Of a stretch of DNA of 64,000 nt, positions 5,981-50,452 are shown piece by piece (the first letter of the stretch is position 1; each line of letters opens with the position of its first letter). Location: NCBI GenBank assembly GCA_001797465.1, contig MGPQ01000009.1:1-64000 (forward strand), in the 5' to 3' direction. Source of the DNA: Deltaproteobacteria bacterium GWB2_55_19. GTDB taxonomy: Bacteria; Desulfobacterota; GWC2-55-46. A model generated the notes under the pieces. The model was not told the DNA's origin. It saw only the letters and a list, made by a program, of their open reading frames with translations, and did not search any database. The translations under genes were made by a program, and so were the position numbers.

Positions 5981-6028
5981 CCGTAGAAAACCCTTTACAG
6001 CCTGCCACAGTGGATTTTCCGGCTTAGC

Positions 6029-6150
6029 GGGTTGCTCAAAAAGCTCCAGATGCGAGGCGTCGAGAAGTGAGTAACGAGGCGTACTTTTTCGTACGCCGCA
6101 GGGACGAACGCCGAAGACAACAAAGCAGATGGACTTTTTGAGCGGCCCTT
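6029..6150 (-). repeat. Stop-codon palindrome family B, copy 1
   Basis: An imperfect palindrome. The outer arms are GGTTGCTCAAAAAG and CTTTTTGAGCGGCC, and the inner hairpin is GGCGTAC/GTACGCC at about 6086-6106. Its right end touches the stop codon of the ChaN-like gene (6151-6153). The same family occurs at 20655, 29917, 34615 and, in divergent form, 31752. Confidence 0.85.
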
Positions 6151-8407: not shown

Positions 8408-8446
8408 AAAAAAAAGGCCTTCGCCCCTGTTGGGGTGAAGGCCTTT
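8408..8446 (-). terminator. Intrinsic terminator of the cold-shock gene
   Basis: On the minus strand AAAGGCCTTC plus a CCCC/GGGG inner stem pairs with its inverse across a four-base loop and is followed by eight T. It begins 20 bases past the csp stop. Confidence 0.88.
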
Positions 8447-8465
8447 GCCGCAGATAGTCTGCGGA

Positions 8466-8666
8466 TTACAGCGGTTTTACGTTTTCGGCCTTGAGCCCCT
8501 TAGGCCCCTTGGTGACCTCGAAGTCCACCCTCTGGCCTTCTCTCAGGGTCTTGAACCCGTCACCCTGGATGGAAGTGTGGTGGACGAATACGTCTTCGCC
8601 GGAGTCCTGTTCGATAAAACCGAAACCCTTAGACTCGTTGAACCATTTTACTTTTCCTGAAGGCAT
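8466..8666 (-). CDS. cspA: Cold-shock domain protein
   Basis: A 66-residue single cold-shock domain. RNP1 is KGFGFI and RNP2 is VFVHHTSI, the surfaces that bind single-stranded RNA and DNA. It probably melts mRNA structure at low temperature or acts as a general RNA chaperone. AGGAGG precedes the ATG. A strong promoter at 8772-8800 leaves a leader of about 100 bases, the usual design of csp genes whose leader folds with temperature. It has its own terminator, so it is monocistronic. Confidence 0.95.
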
Positions 8667-8771
8667 CTTGCGCGACCTCCTTTCTGGAAGATTTACAAGT
8701 CCCGGGGGTCGCGCGCTTTAAGGTCATGATGCCTTGCGTACAAACCCGTCTGCCAACTTGCTTATTCAGTT

Positions 8772-10963: not shown

Positions 10964-11150
10964 GTCCTTGCCGGACGGGCAAAGTTCATATCGGGACGGC
11001 TTGGATTATTTTTGGCTCTTAATTCCCCGGAGGACATTGGCCCAGCGCCGAGCGGTCCTTGCCGGACGGGCAAATCCATATCAGACGGCTCTGCCTAGGG
11101 ATGCCGGAGTAGCCGTATTTGAAACTGGCCGTACGCCGAGTACCCGAGCG
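10964..11150 (+). repeat. Dispersed repeat family C, copies 2a and 2b in tandem
   Basis: Two diverged units, 10964-11053 and 11055-11150, each open with GTCCTTGCCGGACGGGCAAA and close with a GGCC...GCCGAG motif. They fill the intergenic space between the divergent amidase and antiporter genes. Confidence 0.75.
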
Positions 11151-15645: not shown

Positions 15646-15723
15646 ACAGCGGTTGCGAACCGACCCATAGCAGGCACCGCACACTGGATTGTTCAATTCC
15701 AAGTCGTGAAAAAGAATTTTTTA

Positions 15724-15970
15724 CGCCCTGCCGGTTTTTTTTCGGCATAGGGCTTCGCTCCCTCCGTCCTCCCCCTCCCCCTCCCGCTATGCGCGGGGCC
15801 AGAATTCTTCGGAAGCTATTGAGGTTAGGGTAAACGAATCGTCTCGATACGAACTTTGCCCGTCCGGCGAGGACCATTCGCTCGCGCTACGGCGCTGTCG
15901 CGCCTTTTTACTTCCCCGGCTCGCTCATTTAGCTTCCTCCCTTAAGGTCGCTTCACCCCATGCCTGGGTT
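15724..15970 (+). repeat. Dispersed repeat family A, copy 3, with a nested family C unit
   Basis: It opens with GCCCTGCCGG and a run of T and ends at CCCCATGCC (about 15957-15964). At 15795-15884 it carries the same inverted family C unit as copy 2. The shared tail GGCGCAGGGCGGAG runs to the stop codon of the CDF gene at 16033. Region 15646-16032 holds no gene. Confidence 0.75.
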
Positions 15971-16032
15971 TTCTGAAAAACAAAAAAAATTTTTCATTCA
16001 GTCTTCACCAATACAGAGGCGCAGGGCGGAGC

Positions 16033-18565: not shown

Positions 18566-18757
18566 GGTCCTCGCCGGACGGGCAAAGTTCGTATCCAACG
18601 GCGGCTGGCCAAAAAGATTACAGCAGTCTCCGGATACTTGGCCCTGCGCCGAACAGTCCTCGCCGGACGGGCAAAGTTCGTATCCAACGGCGGCGGGCCA
18701 AAAAGATTACAGCAGTCTCCGGATACTTTGGCCCTGCGCCGAACAGTCCTCGCCGGA
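18566..18757 (+). repeat. Dispersed repeat family C, tandem pair
   Basis: Two nearly identical units of about 95 bases, plus the start of a third, each opening GTCCTCGCCGGACGGGCAAA and closing TTGGCCCTGCGCCGAACA. The array exactly fills the gap between two convergent stop codons (18563-18565 and 18758-18760). The near identity implies recent duplication. Confidence 0.88.
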
Positions 18758-19627
18758 CTACTTCAGTATCTTTTCAGGGGAGACGAGGTGGCGGGACAGG
18801 CCCATCTCTTCGGCGGTCAGGCCCAGAGAGAGCCCTACGAGCTGTGAGAGGTGGAATACAGGCATGGCAATTTTTTGAGAGGCCCGCTTTTCCGCGAGCC
18901 CCTGGTAGTTGTCGAGATTTATATGGCAGAACGGGCACGGCGTCACGAATGCGTTTGCCCCCTTCTCCTTGCCGTCGAGGAGCCGTGTCGCCGTCATCTT
19001 CTCGGCGGTCTCGGCCACGACAAGGTCCACCTGAAACCCGCAACACTTGGTCTTGCCCTTGTACTGGACCGCCTCGCCTCCGAGCGCCTCTATGACGGCG
19101 TCCAGAGACCACGGCCTTTCAGGGTCGTCGAACCCGAGCGCGTCGGAGGGGCGAAGGCTGTGGCACCCGTAGAACGGCGCGGCCTTTATCCAGTTAAGGG
19201 GCTTTACGACCTTCTTCTTGAGGTTGTCCAGCCCGTAGTCCCCGGCCAGCACCCAGAGGAGCTGTTTTATCTTTATCGTCCCGTTGTAGCGTAGCCCTGC
19301 CGTCGCGAGTATCTCGTTCGTCTTTTCCAGCAGTTTCGGGTCGGCCAACAGGTCCCTGTTCGCCGTGGACATGACCATGAGGCACGTCGAGCAGATGGTC
19401 ATTATGTCCATGCCCATAGCCTCGGCCTCGGCGAAGATGCGCGCGTTCAGCGCGAGATAGAGCTGGTAGTCGTAGTCGGTTAGCAACCCCGCGCCGCAGC
19501 AATTCGCCTTGGGCATGTCGTGGAGTCCGATGCCGAGCTTTTTGCATACGAGCCTTGTCGTCGCGTTAGCCTCTTTCGTCATCTCCTGAGAGGCGCACCC
19601 AGGATAATATGCGTACTTTAGTTCCAA
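18758..19627 (-). CDS. Class-E succinate/fumarate oxidoreductase subunit E (HdrB-like, two CCG domains)
   Basis: This 289-residue protein holds two cysteine-rich CCG domains: Cys11, Cys43-44, Cys79, Cys82 and Cys155, Cys195-196, Cys231, Cys234. Both sets are complete, so two HdrB-type non-cubane clusters are possible. In class-E enzymes (Sulfolobus Sdh, Campylobacter and Wolinella MfrABE) such a subunit replaces the haem b anchor and passes electrons to or from the quinone pool. It follows sdhB after three bases, confirming the sdhA-sdhB-sdhE set. The start is TTG with AGGGG before it; the ribosome site overlaps the sdhB stop. The stop codon abuts the family C array. Confidence 0.88.
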   Translation of the reverse strand: MELKYAYYPGCASQEMTKEANATTRLVCKKLGIGLHDMPKANCCGAGLLTDYDYQLYLALNARIFAEAEAMGMDIMTICSTCLMVMSTANRDLLADPKLLEKTNEILATAGLRYNGTIKIKQLLWVLAGDYGLDNLKKKVVKPLNWIKAAPFYGCHSLRPSDALGFDDPERPWSLDAVIEALGGEAVQYKGKTKCCGFQVDLVVAETAEKMTATRLLDGKEKGANAFVTPCPFCHINLDNYQGLAEKRASQKIAMPVFHLSQLVGLSLGLTAEEMGLSRHLVSPEKILK

Positions 19628-20614: not shown

Positions 20615-20654
20615 GCCTTCCTTTAGCAGGTCGCAAACGATCCAGAAACTTATT

Positions 20655-20788
20655 CAGGTTGCTCAAAAAACTCCAGATGCGAGGCCCCAGTTGAAATAGG
20701 GAAGCGAGGAACGAGGCGTACTTTTTTGTGTGCGCCGCAGTGACGCGCGACGAGGACAACAAAGCAGATGGACTTTTTGAGCAACCTG
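20655..20788 (-). repeat. Stop-codon palindrome family B, copy 2 (between sdhA and sdhB)
   Basis: The outer arms CAGGTTGCTCAAAAAA and TTTTTGAGCAACCTG pair almost fully. The right arm ends at 20788 and the sdhA stop codon TAA begins at the next base (20789-20791). The inner part holds the same GGCGTAC core as other copies, with the right side degraded. Confidence 0.88.
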
Positions 20789-22459
20789 TTAATATTTCCT
20801 CTCCTGCGGCTGAAACCTCGTTACTGTAACAGGCTTATACCCGATCCTCATCTCCCCGTCCTTGAGGCTGACGATAGTGTGTTTCATCCAGTCCTTATCG
20901 TTCCTCAACGGGAAGTCGGTCCTGAAGTGAGAGCCCCGGGACTCCTCCCTCTCTATGGCCCCGATGAGGATCGCCTCTGCGATCTTGAGCATCTGCCCGA
21001 GTTCCAGGACATGCAGGAGCTCGTTATTGTAATAGTCGCCGCGGTCGGTGAGCGCGACCGACTTGTACCTCTCCTTTATATCCCTTAGTTTACCGAGGCC
21101 CAGGGTGAGCCTCGTTCTGTCCCTGAATACACTGGAGTGGTCCACCATGACGCCCGCCATCTCCTCGCGAAGCGCGGCAGGGGATTCGCCCCCGTCCCTT
21201 TTTATGATATCGGCAACCTCGTGCGCCGCGTCTTTCAATGCGGCGTCGGGGAAGGGGAGTAGCCCGTTCGAATCGCAAAAAGACACGAGCCCAGTACCCG
21301 CGCGCCTGCCGAAGACTATCGCCTCAAGGAGCGAGTTGCCTCCGAGCCTGTTCGCGCCGTGCGTGGAGACGCACGCGCACTCTCCAGCGGCGTAAAGTCC
21401 GGGGACGGTCGTAGCGCCGTTAAGGTCCGTCCTTATGCCTCCCATGGAGTAATGCGCGCCTGGTTTTACGGGTATGGGCGCCTCGATCGGGTCGACCCCG
21501 GCGAAGTTTATGGCGAGCGACCTTATCTGCGGGAGCCGCTCTTTTATCTTATCCGCCCCAAGGTGGCGCAGGTCCAGAAGGACGCACCCGTCCACGCCCC
21601 TGCCCTCCTCTATCTCGGTCTGCTCGGCGCGGCTTACGACGTCTCTGCTCGCGAGCTCCAGCACATTTGGCGCGTACTTCGACATGAACCTCTCGCCCCT
21701 GGAGTTCACGAGATAGCCGCCCTCGCCCCTGCACCCCTCTGTCATGAGTATGCCTGTGCGCTTCAGGACCGTCGGGTGGAACTGGACGAACTCCATGTCC
21801 ATAAGCTCGGCCCCGGCGTCGAGCGCGAGCCCCATGCCGTCGCCGGTGGACGAGAGGGCGTTCGTCGTGGTCTTGAAGACCCTGCCGTATCCTCCGGTGG
21901 CCACCAGGACCGCCTTGGAATGCAACCGGTGGAGCTTCCCGGTGGAGAGCTCCTGGGCTATGACGCCTCTGGCGCGCCCGTCCTCGACTACAATTTTAAC
22001 GACATGCCACTCGTCATAGAGGACGACGTCGTGCTTAATGAGCTGTTCATACATGACATGGAGGAGCGCGTGGCCGGTCCTGTCCGCGAGGTAGCACGTG
22101 CGGGGATAGCCCGCGCCGCCGAAGGGCCTCTGGGCAATCCTGCCCTCGGGGTCCCTGCTGAATATCGCCCCCATCTTCTCAAGCTCCATGATGTCGAAGG
22201 GCGCTTCCCTGCAGAGCGTCTCTATCGCGTCCTGGTCGCCGAGATAATCCGACCCCTTTACCGTGTCGAAGGCGTGGCTCTCCCAGGAGTCGGTATCCTT
22301 CAGGGCCGCGTTTATGCCGCCCTGTGCCGCGACCGAATGGCTCCTTACGGGATAAATCTTAGAGACTATCGCGGCGTCGAGCCCCGCGCGCGAGGCCTCT
22401 ATCGCGGCCCTCATGCCGGCGAGCCCGGCGCCGATTATGACGATGTCATGGATTACCAA
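20789..22459 (-). CDS. sdhA: Succinate dehydrogenase/fumarate reductase flavoprotein subunit
   Basis: This 556-residue catalytic subunit converts succinate and fumarate. The FAD-binding [13 protein letters not shown] is at 7-19. [10 protein letters not shown] contains His41, the usual covalent FAD attachment. Active-site segments [29 protein letters not shown] and [12 protein letters not shown] are intact. The start is TTG at 22459 with AAGGA eight bases upstream. With sdhB and the CCG-domain subunit it forms a class-E complex with no membrane-anchor gene nearby. Direction cannot be told from sequence. Confidence 0.94.
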
Positions 22460-29916: not shown

Positions 29917-30038
29917 CAGGTTGCTCAAAAAGCTCCAGATGCGAGGCGTCGAGAAGCGAGGAACGAGGCGTACTTTTCTGTACGCCGCAGGACAGAGCGC
30001 CGAAGACAACGAAGCAGGTGGACTTTTTGAGCGGCCTG
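29917..30038 (-). repeat. Stop-codon palindrome family B, copy 3 (between frdB-like and frdA-like)
   Basis: The outer arms are CAGGTTGCTCAAAAAG and CTTTTTGAGCGGCCTG; the inner hairpin is GGCGTAC/GTACGCC. The right arm ends at 30038 and the stop codon TAG of the iron-sulfur gene is 30039-30041. About 120 bases separate its left end from the next start. Confidence 0.88.
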
Positions 30039-30824
30039 CTAAAGGTTCTTCGTATCCTTCGGCATCCACTTGCCCGCCTCGGCCAGGTCCGGCTCCCTCT
30101 CGCGCTCGACGTAGAGCTTCTTTACGTCCTCCTGCTTCATGGACATGAGCTCGTCGAGCATCTTTTCGTACTTGCCGCTCCTTACCTCGTCGACCCTCTT
30201 TTTCACATGCGCGGCCTTGGGGAGGATGTACTTGCCGTAGACCCTTCTCACAAACATCGCGGCCGTGAACTGGGATATCTGGGCAGGGCACCTGGAGGCG
30301 CAGAGCCCGCACATGACGCAGTCGAAGCTCTTTATCGCCGCGCCTTTAAGGTCGCCCCTCTTCATGAGGGCGATGTAGTCCATTACGTCTATGTCCATTG
30401 GGCAGGTCCTGGTGCAGGTGCCGCACCCGACGCACTTGAATACCTCGGGGTAGAGCCTGCGGAGTTCCTCGTGGGGCGCGGACTGCATCTTCTCAAGGTC
30501 GTAGCCGGGCCTGTTCGCCGGGAAGAACGGCAGTTGCATGATAATCATGTTCGGCTCGGCTACGGTCTGGCAGGCGAGCCCGGAGCGGAGCCTGTAATCT
30601 CCTATAAAGCGGTAGAACGTGCCGCACGCGCCGCAGATGCCGCCCCTGCAACCGCACCCGCGCACGTAGGAATATCCCGCGTACTCGACGGCCTTCATGA
30701 TGGTCAGCGTCTCAGGCACGACGTACTCGCGCCCCATGATGTATATGGGGATCATCTTCGCGCCTTCGGGCGGGATGGTCTTGTCGCCGGTAGCGAGCGT
30801 CTTTAGTTTTTTCTCTTCTGCCAT
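30039..30824 (-). CDS. Iron-sulfur subunit of the soluble fumarate-reductase-like pair (FrdB/TfrB-like)
   Basis: This 261-residue protein has a [2Fe-2S] ferredoxin domain with Cys57, 59, 64, 67 and 85. Two [4Fe-4S] loops follow: CVGCGTCTRTCP (131-142) and CVMCGLCASRCP (169-180). The domain order is that of FrdB. It lacks the C-terminal CCG domains found in TfrB of methanogens; HdrB upstream could supply that function. The last 60 residues are charged and probably helical. GGGAG precedes the ATG. Transcribed after flxA and before the flavoprotein. Confidence 0.85.
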   Translation of the reverse strand: MAEEKKLKTLATGDKTIPPEGAKMIPIYIMGREYVVPETLTIMKAVEYAGYSYVRGCGCRGGICGACGTFYRFIGDYRLRSGLACQTVAEPNMIIMQLPFFPANRPGYDLEKMQSAPHEELRRLYPEVFKCVGCGTCTRTCPMDIDVMDYIALMKRGDLKGAAIKSFDCVMCGLCASRCPAQISQFTAAMFVRRVYGKYILPKAAHVKKRVDEVRSGKYEKMLDELMSMKQEDVKKLYVEREREPDLAEAGKWMPKDTKNL

Positions 30825-30881: not shown

Positions 30882-31718
30882 CTAAAAATCGTTGTACATC
30901 TTTTTTACTTCAGCGGCGGTGTATACAGGGCCTTCCTTGCAGACGTATACGTCACCTACGTTGCACCTGCCGCATTTGCCGACCCCGCACTTCATCTTGT
31001 TCTCGAGCGTCGTGTAGACGTTTTCATCCGAGAAGCCGAGCTTCTCAAGGGCCTTCAACACGAACTTTATCATGATAGGGGGCCCGCATGTGACGGCGAC
31101 GGTGTTCTCGGCTATCGGCGCGGCCTCCTCCAATACCGTCGGCACGAACCCGACCTTGCCCTGCCACTCCGGGGTCTGCCCGCCGGGGTCCACGGCCTGT
31201 ATGAGCCTGACGTCGTTCCTGTCTCCCCAGTGCTGGAGCTCGTTCTTGTACACGAGGTCCGCTACCGTCCTCGCGCCGTAGACGACCGTGATGTCGCCGA
31301 ACTCCTCGCGCCTGTCGAGGCAGTTCCATATTACGGAGCGGACCGGGGGCAACCCTATGCCGCCCGCGATGAAGACGAGGTTCTTGCCCTTCCACTCGTC
31401 GACCGGGAAGAAGTTCCCGTAAGGGCCGCGGAAACCCATGGTGTCTCCGATGGACAATTCCGAGAGCCCGCCTGTTACCCTGCCGGACTTCCTGAAGGTG
31501 CACTGTATGTAGCCCTTCCGGGTCGGGGCAGAGGCGATGCAGAAGGTCGATTCGCCGAGCCCGAAGGCCGAGTAAAGGCCGAACTGTCCGGTCTTGAAGT
31601 CGAACGTCTCGCGCAGCGCCTTGTCCTTGAAGACCAGTCTAAAGGACCTGACGTCAGGGGCCTCTTCGTATATGTCCTCGATTGTTACGAGGTGGGGGAG
31701 GTATATGTTGTTGCTCAT
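30882..31718 (-). CDS. flxA: FAD/NAD(P)H-binding oxidoreductase subunit (FlxA-like)
   Basis: A 278-residue ferredoxin-reductase-type protein. An FAD-binding domain (FKTGQFGLYSAFGLGE, then FRGPYGNFFP) leads to an NAD-binding domain (VFIAGGIGLPPVRS and VTCGPPIMIKF). A PyrK-like [2Fe-2S] loop lies at the end (MKCGVGKCGRCNVG, CKEGPV). It matches FlxA of the Desulfovibrio Flx-Hdr complex and also subunit B of anaerobic sulfite reductase. In this setting it most likely takes electrons from NADH. Upstream, a divergent family B palindrome separates it from flxB. Confidence 0.85.
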   Translation of the reverse strand: MSNNIYLPHLVTIEDIYEEAPDVRSFRLVFKDKALRETFDFKTGQFGLYSAFGLGESTFCIASAPTRKGYIQCTFRKSGRVTGGLSELSIGDTMGFRGPYGNFFPVDEWKGKNLVFIAGGIGLPPVRSVIWNCLDRREEFGDITVVYGARTVADLVYKNELQHWGDRNDVRLIQAVDPGGQTPEWQGKVGFVPTVLEEAAPIAENTVAVTCGPPIMIKFVLKALEKLGFSDENVYTTLENKMKCGVGKCGRCNVGDVYVCKEGPVYTAAEVKKMYNDF

Positions 31719-31751: not shown

Positions 31752-31876
31752 TAATTCGGCTTATAAATGCTCAGATGATAGGAAGGGCGAGGGTTGAACC
31801 GGAGCATACTTTTTAGTATGTGAGGATTCAAACCCGAAGCCCTGACAACGCAGATGGGCGTTTATAAGCCGAATTA
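31752..31876 (-). repeat. Stop-codon palindrome family B, divergent copy 5 (between flxB and flxA)
   Basis: The outer arms TAATTCGGCTTATAAA and TTTATAAGCCGAATTA are a perfect 16-bp inverted repeat that includes the flxB stop codon (31874-31876). The inner hairpin is AGCATAC...GTATGTG-like. Sequence differs from other family B copies, but CAGATG, ATACTTTTTAGTATG and GACAACGCAGATGG keep the shared layout, so base changes on one arm are matched on the other. Confidence 0.78.
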
Positions 31877-32884
31877 CCGTGAGAACTCTTCCATCACTTC
31901 TGTTATGTCCAACCGGACCGGGCAAACCCTTATGCACCTGCCGCACCCCACACACCCCTTTGAGGCGAACTTCTCGGGGTAGAAGTTGAACTTGCACATG
32001 AAGCGGTTACGCCACCTCTGGTACTGGTAGTGGCGCGGGTTATGGCCGCTCGCGTGGAGGGTGAAGGTGTCGTACTGGCACGCGTCCCAGTTTTTGCGCC
32101 TCTCTCCGGCAAATGCCGTCCCCTCGTCCGTTATGTCGAAGCAATGGCACGTGGGGCATACGAACGTGCAGGCCCCGCACCCGATGCACTTCCTCGTAAG
32201 CCGGGCCCAGACCTGGTCGTCGTAATGGCTCTTGTCTTTTAGCCTCGCGCCTACCTTATTAAGATCGATTGTCCCGATCTTCTCCGGCATAACAAGCGCC
32301 TTCGCCTTGGCGCCCCCTTCCGTGAACGCCGCCTTGTGTCTCTCGACGAACGCCTTCCCCTTTTCCGTCATAGTCTCGACGATATAATCCCCGGACTCGG
32401 TCTCAAGGAGATAAACATCCGAGCCGGTCTTTGTCTCAGGCGAGAGCCCGACCGTAGTGCAGAAACAGGCCTCATCCGCCTTTGTGCAGGCGACTGTTAT
32501 AACAACGAGCGTATCCTCCCGCTTCGTATAGAACTCGTCTATATAGTCCCAGGTGAATATCGCCCGTAAGGATGAGAGGCTCGTTGCCTCGCACGGCCGC
32601 GCGCCTAAGACGACCGTCTCGCGCGCCTCTACCTCCCTGGACTTAAGGTCAACCCCGTGCTTTTCAACCGTGAAGTCGGCTACTACCTCTGTCTGCGGGA
32701 AGACATACTCCTTGTAGGAGTTCCTCGCGAGTATGTAATCCGAGACGATATCCTCGGCCCTGGCGACGTCCTTGAAGACCACCTGCCGGGCGTCGAGCAC
32801 TGGCGCGATGAAGCGTCCGCCCTTGCCGTTGACAGAGGCTACGAGCTTCCCGAGATTCTCTTTTTTCAATATCCTGTCAGCCAT
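31874..32884 (-). CDS. flxB: Iron-sulfur subunit (FlxB-like, 4Fe-4S dicluster)
   Basis: A 336-residue protein. The N-terminal half holds ACTKADEACFCTTVG and resembles HydB/AsrA-type subunits. The C-terminal half has two [4Fe-4S] motifs, CIGCGACTFVCPTC and CVGCGRCIRVCP. Such subunits wire the flavin in FlxA to the rest of the complex. It starts 16 bases after the flxC stop. The name follows gene order relative to Flx-Hdr loci and is less certain than that of flxA. Confidence 0.75.
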   Translation of the reverse strand: MADRILKKENLGKLVASVNGKGGRFIAPVLDARQVVFKDVARAEDIVSDYILARNSYKEYVFPQTEVVADFTVEKHGVDLKSREVEARETVVLGARPCEATSLSSLRAIFTWDYIDEFYTKREDTLVVITVACTKADEACFCTTVGLSPETKTGSDVYLLETESGDYIVETMTEKGKAFVERHKAAFTEGGAKAKALVMPEKIGTIDLNKVGARLKDKSHYDDQVWARLTRKCIGCGACTFVCPTCHCFDITDEGTAFAGERRKNWDACQYDTFTLHASGHNPRHYQYQRWRNRFMCKFNFYPEKFASKGCVGCGRCIRVCPVRLDITEVMEEFSR

Positions 32885-34614: not shown

Positions 34615-34736
34615 CAGGCTACTCAAAAAGCTCCAGATGCGAGGCGTCGAGAAGCGAGGAACGAGGCGTACTTTTCTGTACGCCGCAGGACAGAGCGCCG
34701 AAGACAACGAAGCAGGTGGACTTTTTCAGCAGCCTG
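34615..34736 (-). repeat. Stop-codon palindrome family B, copy 4 (between hdrA and flxD)
   Basis: The outer arms are CAGGCTACTCAAAAAG and CTTTTTCAGCAGCCTG, with two mismatches. The interior is nearly identical to copy 3. The right arm ends at 34736 and the hdrA stop codon TAA is 34737-34739. Confidence 0.88.
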
Positions 34737-36710
34737 TTAAAACGAATTTATCGCCGCGAAGACCTGCTCGTCGGTATAACCGCGCAGATCAACCGACTTC
34801 GACCTGCAAGCCGCCACGCACACGCCGCAACCCTGGCACACGCCCTCGTTGACCCTCGCGAGCCACTTAACGATATTCCCCTGCCTGTCTTTTACGGACT
34901 CCCTCTCGATAGCCGAGTACGGGCATGCCGTTACGCAGTCCCAGCACGCGTTGCAGGTCGTTTTGTTCACGCCGGCGGTTATCGGCTCCCTCGCCATCTC
35001 GTCGGCAGAAAACAACGCGAGCACCTTTGACGCCGCGGCAGAGCCCTGCGCGACTGATTCCGGTATGTCCATCGGCCCCATGCACGTTCCGGCCAGGAAT
35101 ATCCCGGCTGTAACGGTCTCGACCGGCCTTAACTTCGGGTGGTACTCGTTGTAGAACTTGTACTTGTCGTACCCTATGCCGAGCTTCTGCGCGAGCGTAT
35201 CCGCGCCTTCCCTCGAAACGATTGCGGTGGCGAGCACGACCATGTCGGCCTCTATCTCGACCTGACTTCCTGAGAGCGTATCCGCGCCCTGGACGATGAC
35301 CTTGCCGTCCTTTTCATAGACCCTGGAGACGCGCCCCCGGAGATACATAGCGTCGTCGTGCTCTATCGCCTTCCTTACGAACTCCTCGTACCGCTTGCCG
35401 CCTGAGCGTATGTCCATGTAGAAGACGTACGACTGGCCGTCGTGGACCTTGTGCTTGTACAGCATCGTGTGCTTGGCCGTGTACATGCAACAGACCTTGG
35501 AACAGTAGGAGACGCCCTTCTTCTCGTCCCTCGACCCAACGCACTGTATGAAAACGACATTTTGCGGGACCTTGCCGTCGGACGGCCGCCTTATCTCTCC
35601 ACCCGTGGGGCCGGAGGACGACGCGAGACGCTCGAACTGCATGCCGCTTATGACGTCCTTTATCCTGCCGTAGCCGTATTCGCCGAACCTCTCGTTCGGC
35701 ATGAGCTGATAGCCGGTGGCCACCACTATCGCGCCGACCTCTTCGGTCACTATCTTGTCTTCCATCTTGAAATCTATGCACTTCGGACCGCATACGATGG
35801 CGCACGCGCCGCACTTGTCCTTCTGTATCTTAGGGCAGTTGGGGGCGTCTATGACGGGGACGTTCGGGACCGACTGCGGGAACGGCGTATAGATGACCTT
35901 ACGCTTGGCCAGCCCAAGCTCGAACGCGCTCTCGGTCTTGAACGGGCACTTCTCTATGCACTCGCCGCAACCGGTGCACCGCTCCTCGTCCACAAACTTC
36001 GACTTCCTTTTTATCTGGACCGTGAAGTTGCCGATGTAGCCGTCGACCTTCTCTACCTCGGAGTACGTCAGTAAGGTTATGTTCTCGTTCAGCTCAGCCT
36101 CGACCATTTTGGGCGTCAGGATGCACTGCGAGCAATCCATCGTCGGGAAGGTCTCGGAGAGCCGCGCCATGTTGCCGCCGATAGAGGGCTCCTTCTCGAC
36201 AAGTATGACCTCGCGTCCGCCGTCCGCTATGTCGAGCGCGGCCTGAATGCCCGCGATGCCTCCGCCTATTACGAGCGCGCGCTTCTTAACCGGTATCTTT
36301 ATCTTCTTGAGAGGCCTGTTTTTCTTCAGCCTCTCTATCGTCATCCTTGTAAGGTCAATGGATTTGACCGTCCCCACTGCCTTTGTCGTGTCGTGGTGGA
36401 CCCAGGAGCACTGCTCCCGGATGTTCGTTATCTCGCACTGGTAGGGGTTAAGCCCCGCCGCCTCGGCCGCCTTCCTGAAGGTCTTCTCGTGCATGTGCGG
36501 AGAGCAGGCGGATACTATCAAGCCGTCGAGCTTGTTCTCTTTGATCGCCTGCCGGAGCATGTCCTGGCCCGGAGACGAGCACATGAACTTGTAGTCGCAG
36601 GTATATACCACGCCCGGGAGCTTCTTCATCTCCTCGGCGACCTTTTTGGTGTCGACGGTGGCCGCTATGTTATTTCCGCACTGGCAGACGAATACGCCTA
36701 TTCTCGGCAT
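34737..36710 (-). CDS. hdrA: Heterodisulfide reductase subunit A (bifurcating flavoprotein)
   Basis: A full-length 657-residue HdrA. The N-terminal domain holds VFVCQCGNNIAA and SACSPHMHEKTFR. A thioredoxin-reductase-like FAD domain has VIGGGIAGIQAA and EKEPSIGGNMARL, and then the inserted ferredoxin CTGCGECIEKCP. A C-terminal ferredoxin domain has CNACWDCVTACP and CQGCGVCVAAC. In known complexes the HdrA FAD splits electron pairs between ferredoxin and HdrBC. All expected clusters are present, so bifurcation is plausible. AGAGG precedes the ATG. Confidence 0.95.
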   Translation of the reverse strand: MPRIGVFVCQCGNNIAATVDTKKVAEEMKKLPGVVYTCDYKFMCSSPGQDMLRQAIKENKLDGLIVSACSPHMHEKTFRKAAEAAGLNPYQCEITNIREQCSWVHHDTTKAVGTVKSIDLTRMTIERLKKNRPLKKIKIPVKKRALVIGGGIAGIQAALDIADGGREVILVEKEPSIGGNMARLSETFPTMDCSQCILTPKMVEAELNENITLLTYSEVEKVDGYIGNFTVQIKRKSKFVDEERCTGCGECIEKCPFKTESAFELGLAKRKVIYTPFPQSVPNVPVIDAPNCPKIQKDKCGACAIVCGPKCIDFKMEDKIVTEEVGAIVVATGYQLMPNERFGEYGYGRIKDVISGMQFERLASSSGPTGGEIRRPSDGKVPQNVVFIQCVGSRDEKKGVSYCSKVCCMYTAKHTMLYKHKVHDGQSYVFYMDIRSGGKRYEEFVRKAIEHDDAMYLRGRVSRVYEKDGKVIVQGADTLSGSQVEIEADMVVLATAIVSREGADTLAQKLGIGYDKYKFYNEYHPKLRPVETVTAGIFLAGTCMGPMDIPESVAQGSAAASKVLALFSADEMAREPITAGVNKTTCNACWDCVTACPYSAIERESVKDRQGNIVKWLARVNEGVCQGCGVCVAACRSKSVDLRGYTDEQVFAAINSF

Positions 36711-41305: not shown

Positions 41306-41536
41306 AGGCTACTTCTATAAATTGCTATTTTTCCTAACTGCTCGGCGCAGGGCCAAAGTCTCGTACGGAGTCTTTGGGACAAATCAATTCTCCAGCCGTT
41401 CGATACGTATCTGCCCGTCCGGCAAGGACTGTGTCAGGGCGTAAATAAAAATGCTCACATATTCACATATATGCTGCGCTTTTTATTTCCACCCTTCCTT
41501 GACCTTAGAAAAAATATCTAATTTTTAGAAGTAGCC
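41306..41536. mobile_element. Family D MITE-like element between two tRNA genes
   Basis: Imperfect terminal inverted repeats of about 32 bases both open AGGCTACTTCTA. They bracket about 230 bases with no coding sequence. A family C unit (41340-41431, inverted) lies inside. The joined ends alone form the hairpin at 23211-23246. No target-site duplication is obvious. Confidence 0.6.
41340..41431 (-). repeat. Dispersed repeat family C, copy 5 (inverted, inside family D)
   Basis: Read on the minus strand it opens GTCCTTGCCGGACGGGCAGA and closes TTTGGCCCTGCGCCGAGC. It is the same unit as those at 10964 and 18566. Confidence 0.75.
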
Positions 41537-50207: not shown

Positions 50208-50349
50208 GCGCCCTCCGGGCGCTTTTGGGCATGGGATTCGCTCGCTTTCTCCCTCCCCCTCCCGCTCGCGCGCCCCTTAGAGCGCTACGCGTCTAATCCG
50301 CCCCGGCGCGCTCGCCACAGCCTCCCTTAGGCTTCGCTCACCCATGCCC
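50208..50349 (+). repeat. Dispersed repeat family A, copy 4
   Basis: A GCGCCC/GGGCGC hairpin with TTTT (50208-50226) is followed by a core bounded by GGGCATGGG (50227-50235) and CCCATGCCC (50341-50349). It is nearly the reverse complement of copy 1 at 1034-1177. Region 50133-50504 has no gene. Confidence 0.8.
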
Positions 50350-50452
50350 TGGGTTTTTGAAAAACCATTAAATGCGAATATAACCAGGCCTGCCATAACC
50401 GCTTTCGTTGCCCATTCATGTCAATATACATAAAGCTTCATCCCGATTCTTA

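Follow-up and report, generated by a model that had tools for sequence, protein, structure and literature searches.

Stop-codon-anchored palindromic repeats with compensatory stem changes in the intergenic spacers of uncultured Deltaproteobacteria

Results

The 125-nt hairpin at positions 31752-31876 of the window (the whole stretch of 64,000 nucleotides analysed here) is one copy in a superfamily of ~130-bp palindromic intergenic repeats, which is present across the phylum and was previously uncatalogued. Alignments of the copies show stems maintained by compensatory evolution, pairing being kept while the sequence changes, and one end of the element is anchored at the upstream gene's stop codon, with an orientation bias. 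We read the element as probably an ERIC/RPE-like non-autonomous mobile palindromic repeat that folds in the template strand and has an intercistronic role inside operons, and give this reading a probability of roughly 0.6. The features of the hairpin and its surroundings are as follows.

31752-31767, + strand: 5' arm of the outer stem, TAATTCGGCTTATAAA, exact reverse complement of 31861-31876
31772-31777, + strand: 5' copy of CAGATG, pairs with the 3' CAGATG via a tandem G.A mismatch; conserved in the E-type alignment
31784-31788, + strand: third helix, AGGGC arm opposite 31839-31843; one helix column covaries A-T/G-C
31791-31800, + strand: fourth helix, GGGTTGAACC arm opposite 31824-31835; two pairs significant in the phylogeny-aware test
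31804-31821, + strand: inner hairpin GCATAC-TTTTTA-GTATGT, from the fold; almost invariant among E-type copies
31824-31835, + strand: GGATTCAAACCC arm of the fourth helix, from fold and covariation
31839-31843, + strand: GCCCT arm of the third helix, from fold and covariation
31844-31850, + strand: GACAACG, conserved loop segment common to E-type and family B
31851-31856, + strand: 3' copy of CAGATG, from the fold; conserved in the E-type alignment
31861-31876, + strand: 3' arm of the outer stem, TTTATAAGCCGAATTA; its last three bases (31874-31876) read on the - strand are the TAA stop of the upstream gene
31874-32884, - strand: upstream gene SHYb, a 336-aa 4Fe-4S protein (Fer4_22), with its stop codon inside the outer arm
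30882-31718, - strand: next gene of the same operon, an FAD/NAD-binding reductase, with its ATG about 33 nt past the stem
29917-30038, + strand: family B copy that immediately follows the TAG of gene 30039-30824 (- strand)
34615-34736, + strand: family B copy that immediately follows the TAA of the HdrA-like gene 34737-36710 (- strand); relatives have E-type at the same junction
20654-20792, + strand: family B copy
6024-6147, + strand: family B copy

The 16-bp outer stem is perfect, as the initial annotation had claimed, and chance alone would give about 0.002 such inverted repeats (16 bp without a mismatch, arms at most 150 nt apart) in 64 kb. The + strand of the hairpin folds with -67.9 kcal/mol (z = -8.8, with none of 200 dinucleotide shuffles as good), and the - strand less well, with -49.3 kcal/mol (z = -5.0). 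Compared with family B, which has about 30 loci in the 2.6-Mb genome, the inner stem is altered from GGCGTAC/GTACGCC to GCATAC/GTATGT (halves at 31804-31809 and 31816-31821), and CAGATG (at 31772 and 31851) and GACAACG (at 31844) are kept, both as first described. The kept pieces had been taken to be single-stranded, which agrees with the fold for GACAAC, located in an internal loop, but not for CAGATG, the two copies of which face each other within a helix with a tandem G.A/A.G mismatch.

The hairpin had also been described as a divergent copy of family B. It belongs instead to a separate low-copy subfamily, here called E-type, that is spread through the class. By BLAST it is the single copy in its own genome, whereas a sample of 97 related genomes, taken at the levels of genus, family, order and class, yielded E-type relatives in 38, the best copies being 82-92% identical. 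From 30 E-type copies detected with BLAST we built a covariance model, R1, which gave 1-5 strong E-type copies per genome and matches in 48 of the 63 genomes of the class, a count that takes in weaker, related types; full-length matches also occur elsewhere in the phylum. Most family B copies are matched by R1 full length and on the same strand (E = 8.5e-9 for the copy in L020, about 3e-3 for the weakest), and the possibility raised at the outset that the hairpin is a palindrome unrelated to family B was thus not borne out. Because R1 is an E-type-only model and matches both, we regard families B and E as sister families of one superfamily, their homology being shown. A third family of this genome, C, is probably related to both. 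Its hairpins, of the form CAGAGCGTCAGAAC...GAGCAACGCAGGTATGCG...GCGCTCTG, were seen in L206-L214, L027, L031 and the SHYb spacer of L062/L063, often near stop codons. A hairpin architecture is common to E-type, family B, family C and the phylum-wide relatives, and these imperfect palindromes of 100-200 bp in many dispersed intergenic copies have the make-up of ERIC-like repeats.

An Rfam search of the window and the element returned no relevant family for the element (best 14.7 bits against a gathering cut-off of 45), a plasmid collection queried with families B and E gave no match, and the motif strings of the element were not found in a literature search that reached few subscription journals. 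The relatives named in a search with the upstream protein were all uncultured 'Deltaproteobacteria' MAGs except for two distant matches. Elsewhere in the window, 8413-8750 on the - strand matches the cspA thermoregulator RNA (97.9 bits, cut-off 78) and adjoins repeated GC-rich segments. The window also contains a short repeat family around GTCCTTGCCGGACGGGCAAAG in both orientations (2765-2810, 10964-11090, 15840-15885, 18566-18765 and 41337-41429), and repeats of ~65 to >100 nt, 66-92% identical, in direct and inverted arrangement (1018-1169 with 50215-50365, and 2650-2930 with 15719-15995).

The position of the copies relative to genes was quantified with home-made hexamer-scored ORFs rather than a published gene finder, a few of these calls being certainly wrong. 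The upstream gene runs in the same direction in 107 of 120 copies (E, B, class and phylum sets; p = 1.5e-19), and in 94 of these 107 the element edge lies between -15 and +5 nt from the upstream stop codon. Expected positions were calculated from uniform placement in the spacer, the stretch needed by a ribosome-binding site being kept free, and without an unrelated repeat family as a formal control; on this basis 80 of 88 codirectional copies lie within 5 nt of the stop where 24.6 are expected, and in spacers of at least 100 nt the figures are 36 of 42 copies against 1.4. The inverted copies in L040 and L020 also abut a stop codon, with the opposite end, and in family C the stop codon is at most 18 nt from the matching end in six of nine copies. 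Most family B copies adjoin a TAG or TAA stop with CAGG immediately after, so the element's own end may supply the stop; in L044 and L073 a TGA lies within the stem.

The operon that carries the hairpin encodes an HdrA-like protein, FlpD/MvhD, a 4Fe-4S protein and the FAD/NAD reductase, and since the reductase gene starts 33 nt from the stem, a separate promoter for it would not fit outside the hairpin. A comparison of orthologous junctions shows that hairpin types are swapped between close relatives. The SHYb junction has E-type in the window and in L064, L065 and L073, a reversed family C copy in the nearest relatives L062 and L063 (protein 93% and 90% identical), another sequence in L079, and no copy in L066, L069, L077 and L080. 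The HdrA junction has family B in the window and in L062, E-type in several other genomes and none in others. A further inverted repeat, of the CCCCTCTTTAGAAAAGAGGGG type, was observed in the SHYb and HdrA spacers of L079 and in the HdrA spacers of L066 and L063. Some junctions look vertically inherited, such as the HdrC copies of G026 and G028 (92%) and the HdrA copies of G019 and G024 (91%). One Hdr operon holds 23 of the 50 E-type copies, which together with the vertical-looking junctions points to function over random spread; the remaining E-type copies, where identifiable, mostly follow housekeeping genes (examples are pfk, lpd, prs, glyQ, phoU and holA).

Of the two strands, the + strand, which is the template for the upstream gene, folds better in 105 of 113 copies under RNA parameters and in 102 of 113 under DNA parameters. 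The difference between strands is 8.8 kcal/mol in real copies and 2.5 in shuffled copies, so that base composition explains about 2.5 of the ~9 kcal/mol. In well-paired columns of the E-type copies there are 80 G.T against 26 A.C, with a G.T excess in 36 copies and an A.C excess in 9 (p = 6.6e-5); counted per pair the numbers are 20 v 10, which is not significant (p = 0.1). The phylum copies have 38 G.T and 14 A.C in such columns, and G.A exceeds C.T on the + strand in both sets. The wobble asymmetry is weak in G048 and G058 and absent from the well-paired columns of family B (15 G.T v 14 A.C), and a cruder first mismatch count over whole hairpins gave no difference between G.T and A.C (43 v 56; 60 v 48). 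Together, the strand comparisons are moderate evidence that the relevant form is one folded single strand carrying the template-strand sequence. The initial annotation had left the choice between RNA and a cruciform: folding of one strand fits better than a symmetric cruciform, and as the + strand, which folds better, serves as template for the upstream gene, a simple mRNA hairpin does not fit either, although this narrowing is only tentative.

The strand preference bears on the strongest competing explanation, that the hairpin is a 3'-end RNA element of the sense transcript, a terminator or mRNA stabiliser, maintained by the host for its function and not by mobile spread. The precise position at the stop codon, the many copies behind housekeeping genes, the enrichment in the Hdr operon, the vertical relationship of some junctions, and the AAAAA...TTTTT that flanks the GC part of the stem in many copies would all be accounted for in this way. 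However, in 105 of 113 copies it is the sense strand that folds worse, and the A.C and C.T mismatches are on that strand. Nor can the copies all end transcription, because in 38 of 88 the next codirectional start, by our gene calls, is at most 60 nt away, a spacing that would fit co-transcription. Furthermore, the window copy is without a T tract (TTTATAA), and orthologous sites in close relatives are empty or have other hairpins. Taken together, we find this explanation unlikely.

Pairing was counted in a sequence-only MAFFT alignment of 30 E-type copies, where 94.8% of the cells pair and 22 of 40 pairs have double-sided (compensatory) changes. None of 500 shuffles reached any of the five pairing measures, and slid versions pair at 21-40%. 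Since kinship among copies can inflate covariation counts, we wrote an R-scape-like test (our own implementation, not R-scape), based on a G-test with average-product correction and a null in which parsimony-inferred substitutions are redistributed along each branch; it assumes tree-like descent of the copies. With 49 distinct copies, six pairs were significant at E<0.05; the ten top-ranked pairs are without exception on the hairpin diagonal and come from outer and inner helices alike. The selection on structure suggested in the initial annotation is supported by this covariation.

Paired arms could in principle also be kept without selection by neutral palindrome correction, where template switching between the arms restores the stem. 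The perfect 16-bp outer stem would be expected from such a process, as would the concentration of double-sided changes in the outer stem. Against it, covarying pairs in the E-type alignment have conserved G.A mismatches between them that persist, unlike what indiscriminate correction of one arm by the other would leave, and the GACAAC loop likewise stays mismatched; moreover, the inner helices also covary and one strand has more G.T than A.C. We consider palindrome correction improbable, more so than an RNA element of the sense transcript.

Discussion

The nearest described kind of element is ERIC, RPE and Correia. ERIC (enterobacterial repetitive intergenic consensus, also IRU) is an imperfect palindrome of ~127 bp, dispersed, intergenic and co-transcribed, the orientation of which affects the upstream mRNA (PMC2229807). 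The likeness to the repeats described here lies in the length, the palindromic form and the dispersed intergenic location, with no sequence match claimed; in contrast to ERIC, one end is anchored at a stop codon here, and the outer stem changes freely in sequence with pairing kept. Rickettsia palindromic elements (RPE), Correia/NEMIS and YPAL are mobile palindromes of 100-150 bp whose transcripts form long stem-loops (PMC2229807). RPEs insert inside genes too, and Correia elements have terminal repeats with a TA duplication, features that are not shown here. Geobacter are related bacteria. In Geobacter metallireducens, 24 multicopy 'predicted short RNA elements' with the central palindrome GRCGTAGCGCTGCTACGCC are dispersed in intergenic regions; one of them, which G. 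sulfurreducens has too, lies between dap genes that are co-transcribed (PMC2700814). The GRCGTAGCGCTGCTACGCC palindrome resembles GGCGTAC..GTACGCC, a likeness to the described central palindrome and not an alignment of the elements.

We infer mobility, a single-stranded intermediate and an effect on mRNA for these ERIC/RPE-like repeats. The copies would have spread by a process that needs a folded single strand of template-strand sequence, and such a need would keep the stems paired while the sequence of the outer stem drifts. Inside operons, the putatively co-transcribed intercistronic hairpin may, as described for ERIC, tune decay or processing of the upstream versus the downstream message. 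The argument for mobility comes from the distribution of the copies, since neither a transposase nor a target-site duplication nor a clean pair of empty and filled sites could be demonstrated: orthologous junctions differ and some are without a copy, exact insertion boundaries are not recoverable, and TA on both sides was noted by eye, not by systematic count, in some family B copies only. An autonomous transposon with family B ends was also looked for and rejected; pairable end-like matches (at most 1 mismatch) adjoin a known copy and none was seen to flank a longer element.

Integron attC sites form template-strand hairpins behind stop codons, with structure kept over sequence. Stop-codon position, orientation, template-strand folding and conserved structure over variable sequence are all features in which the present repeats resemble such single-stranded recombination sites, which are used by an integrase. 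However, just 5 of 62 genomes in the class have an integron integrase that exceeds the cut-off (true integrases in G048, G054, G055, G056 and G060), the genome of the window (G000) not being among them, inspection of the alignments, as opposed to a formal attC model, did not reveal the core boxes RYYYAAC/GTTRRRY at the element ends, and the copies are dispersed singly beside core genes, all of which makes attC-like sites very improbable.

REP/REPIN-type elements moved by a RAYT (Y1 transposase) are likewise extragenic palindromes near gene ends, and one RAYT-like gene of the window's genome does adjoin a shortened copy of family B, but the elements here are ~130 bp and not 20-40 bp, are without the GTAG tag and a co-occurring RAYT, the resident RAYT has on its two sides an inverted repeat of its own, of the GTAG type (GGGTAGGGTGCGC...GCGCACCCTACCC), and not family B, and several copy-rich genomes (G003, G008, G011, G015, G018, G019 and G048) gave no Y1_Tnp match, so that we give this origin very little credence. 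The RAYT-like Y1 transposase gene lies in L061 at 1200-2040, in the window's own genome on contig C10 near 256231-257071.

A bolder version of our preferred reading, that these are phylum-wide mobile hairpins which target stop codons and act or move via the folded template strand, with a machinery unrelated to RAYT and integron integrases, is speculative and in our judgment doubtful.

Small palindromic repeats are common in bacteria and poorly understood, and the present family offers many phylum-wide copies with well-supported compensatory evolution. In operons of core energy metabolism (Hdr and its partners), the spacers between genes have repeatedly been refitted with different hairpins. 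The rule of position, according to which the hairpin begins at the stop codon even where the spacer is long, was unexpected, and explaining it would uncover either a new way in which inserting DNA is directed to the ends of genes or a role of the hairpin that is linked to translation termination.
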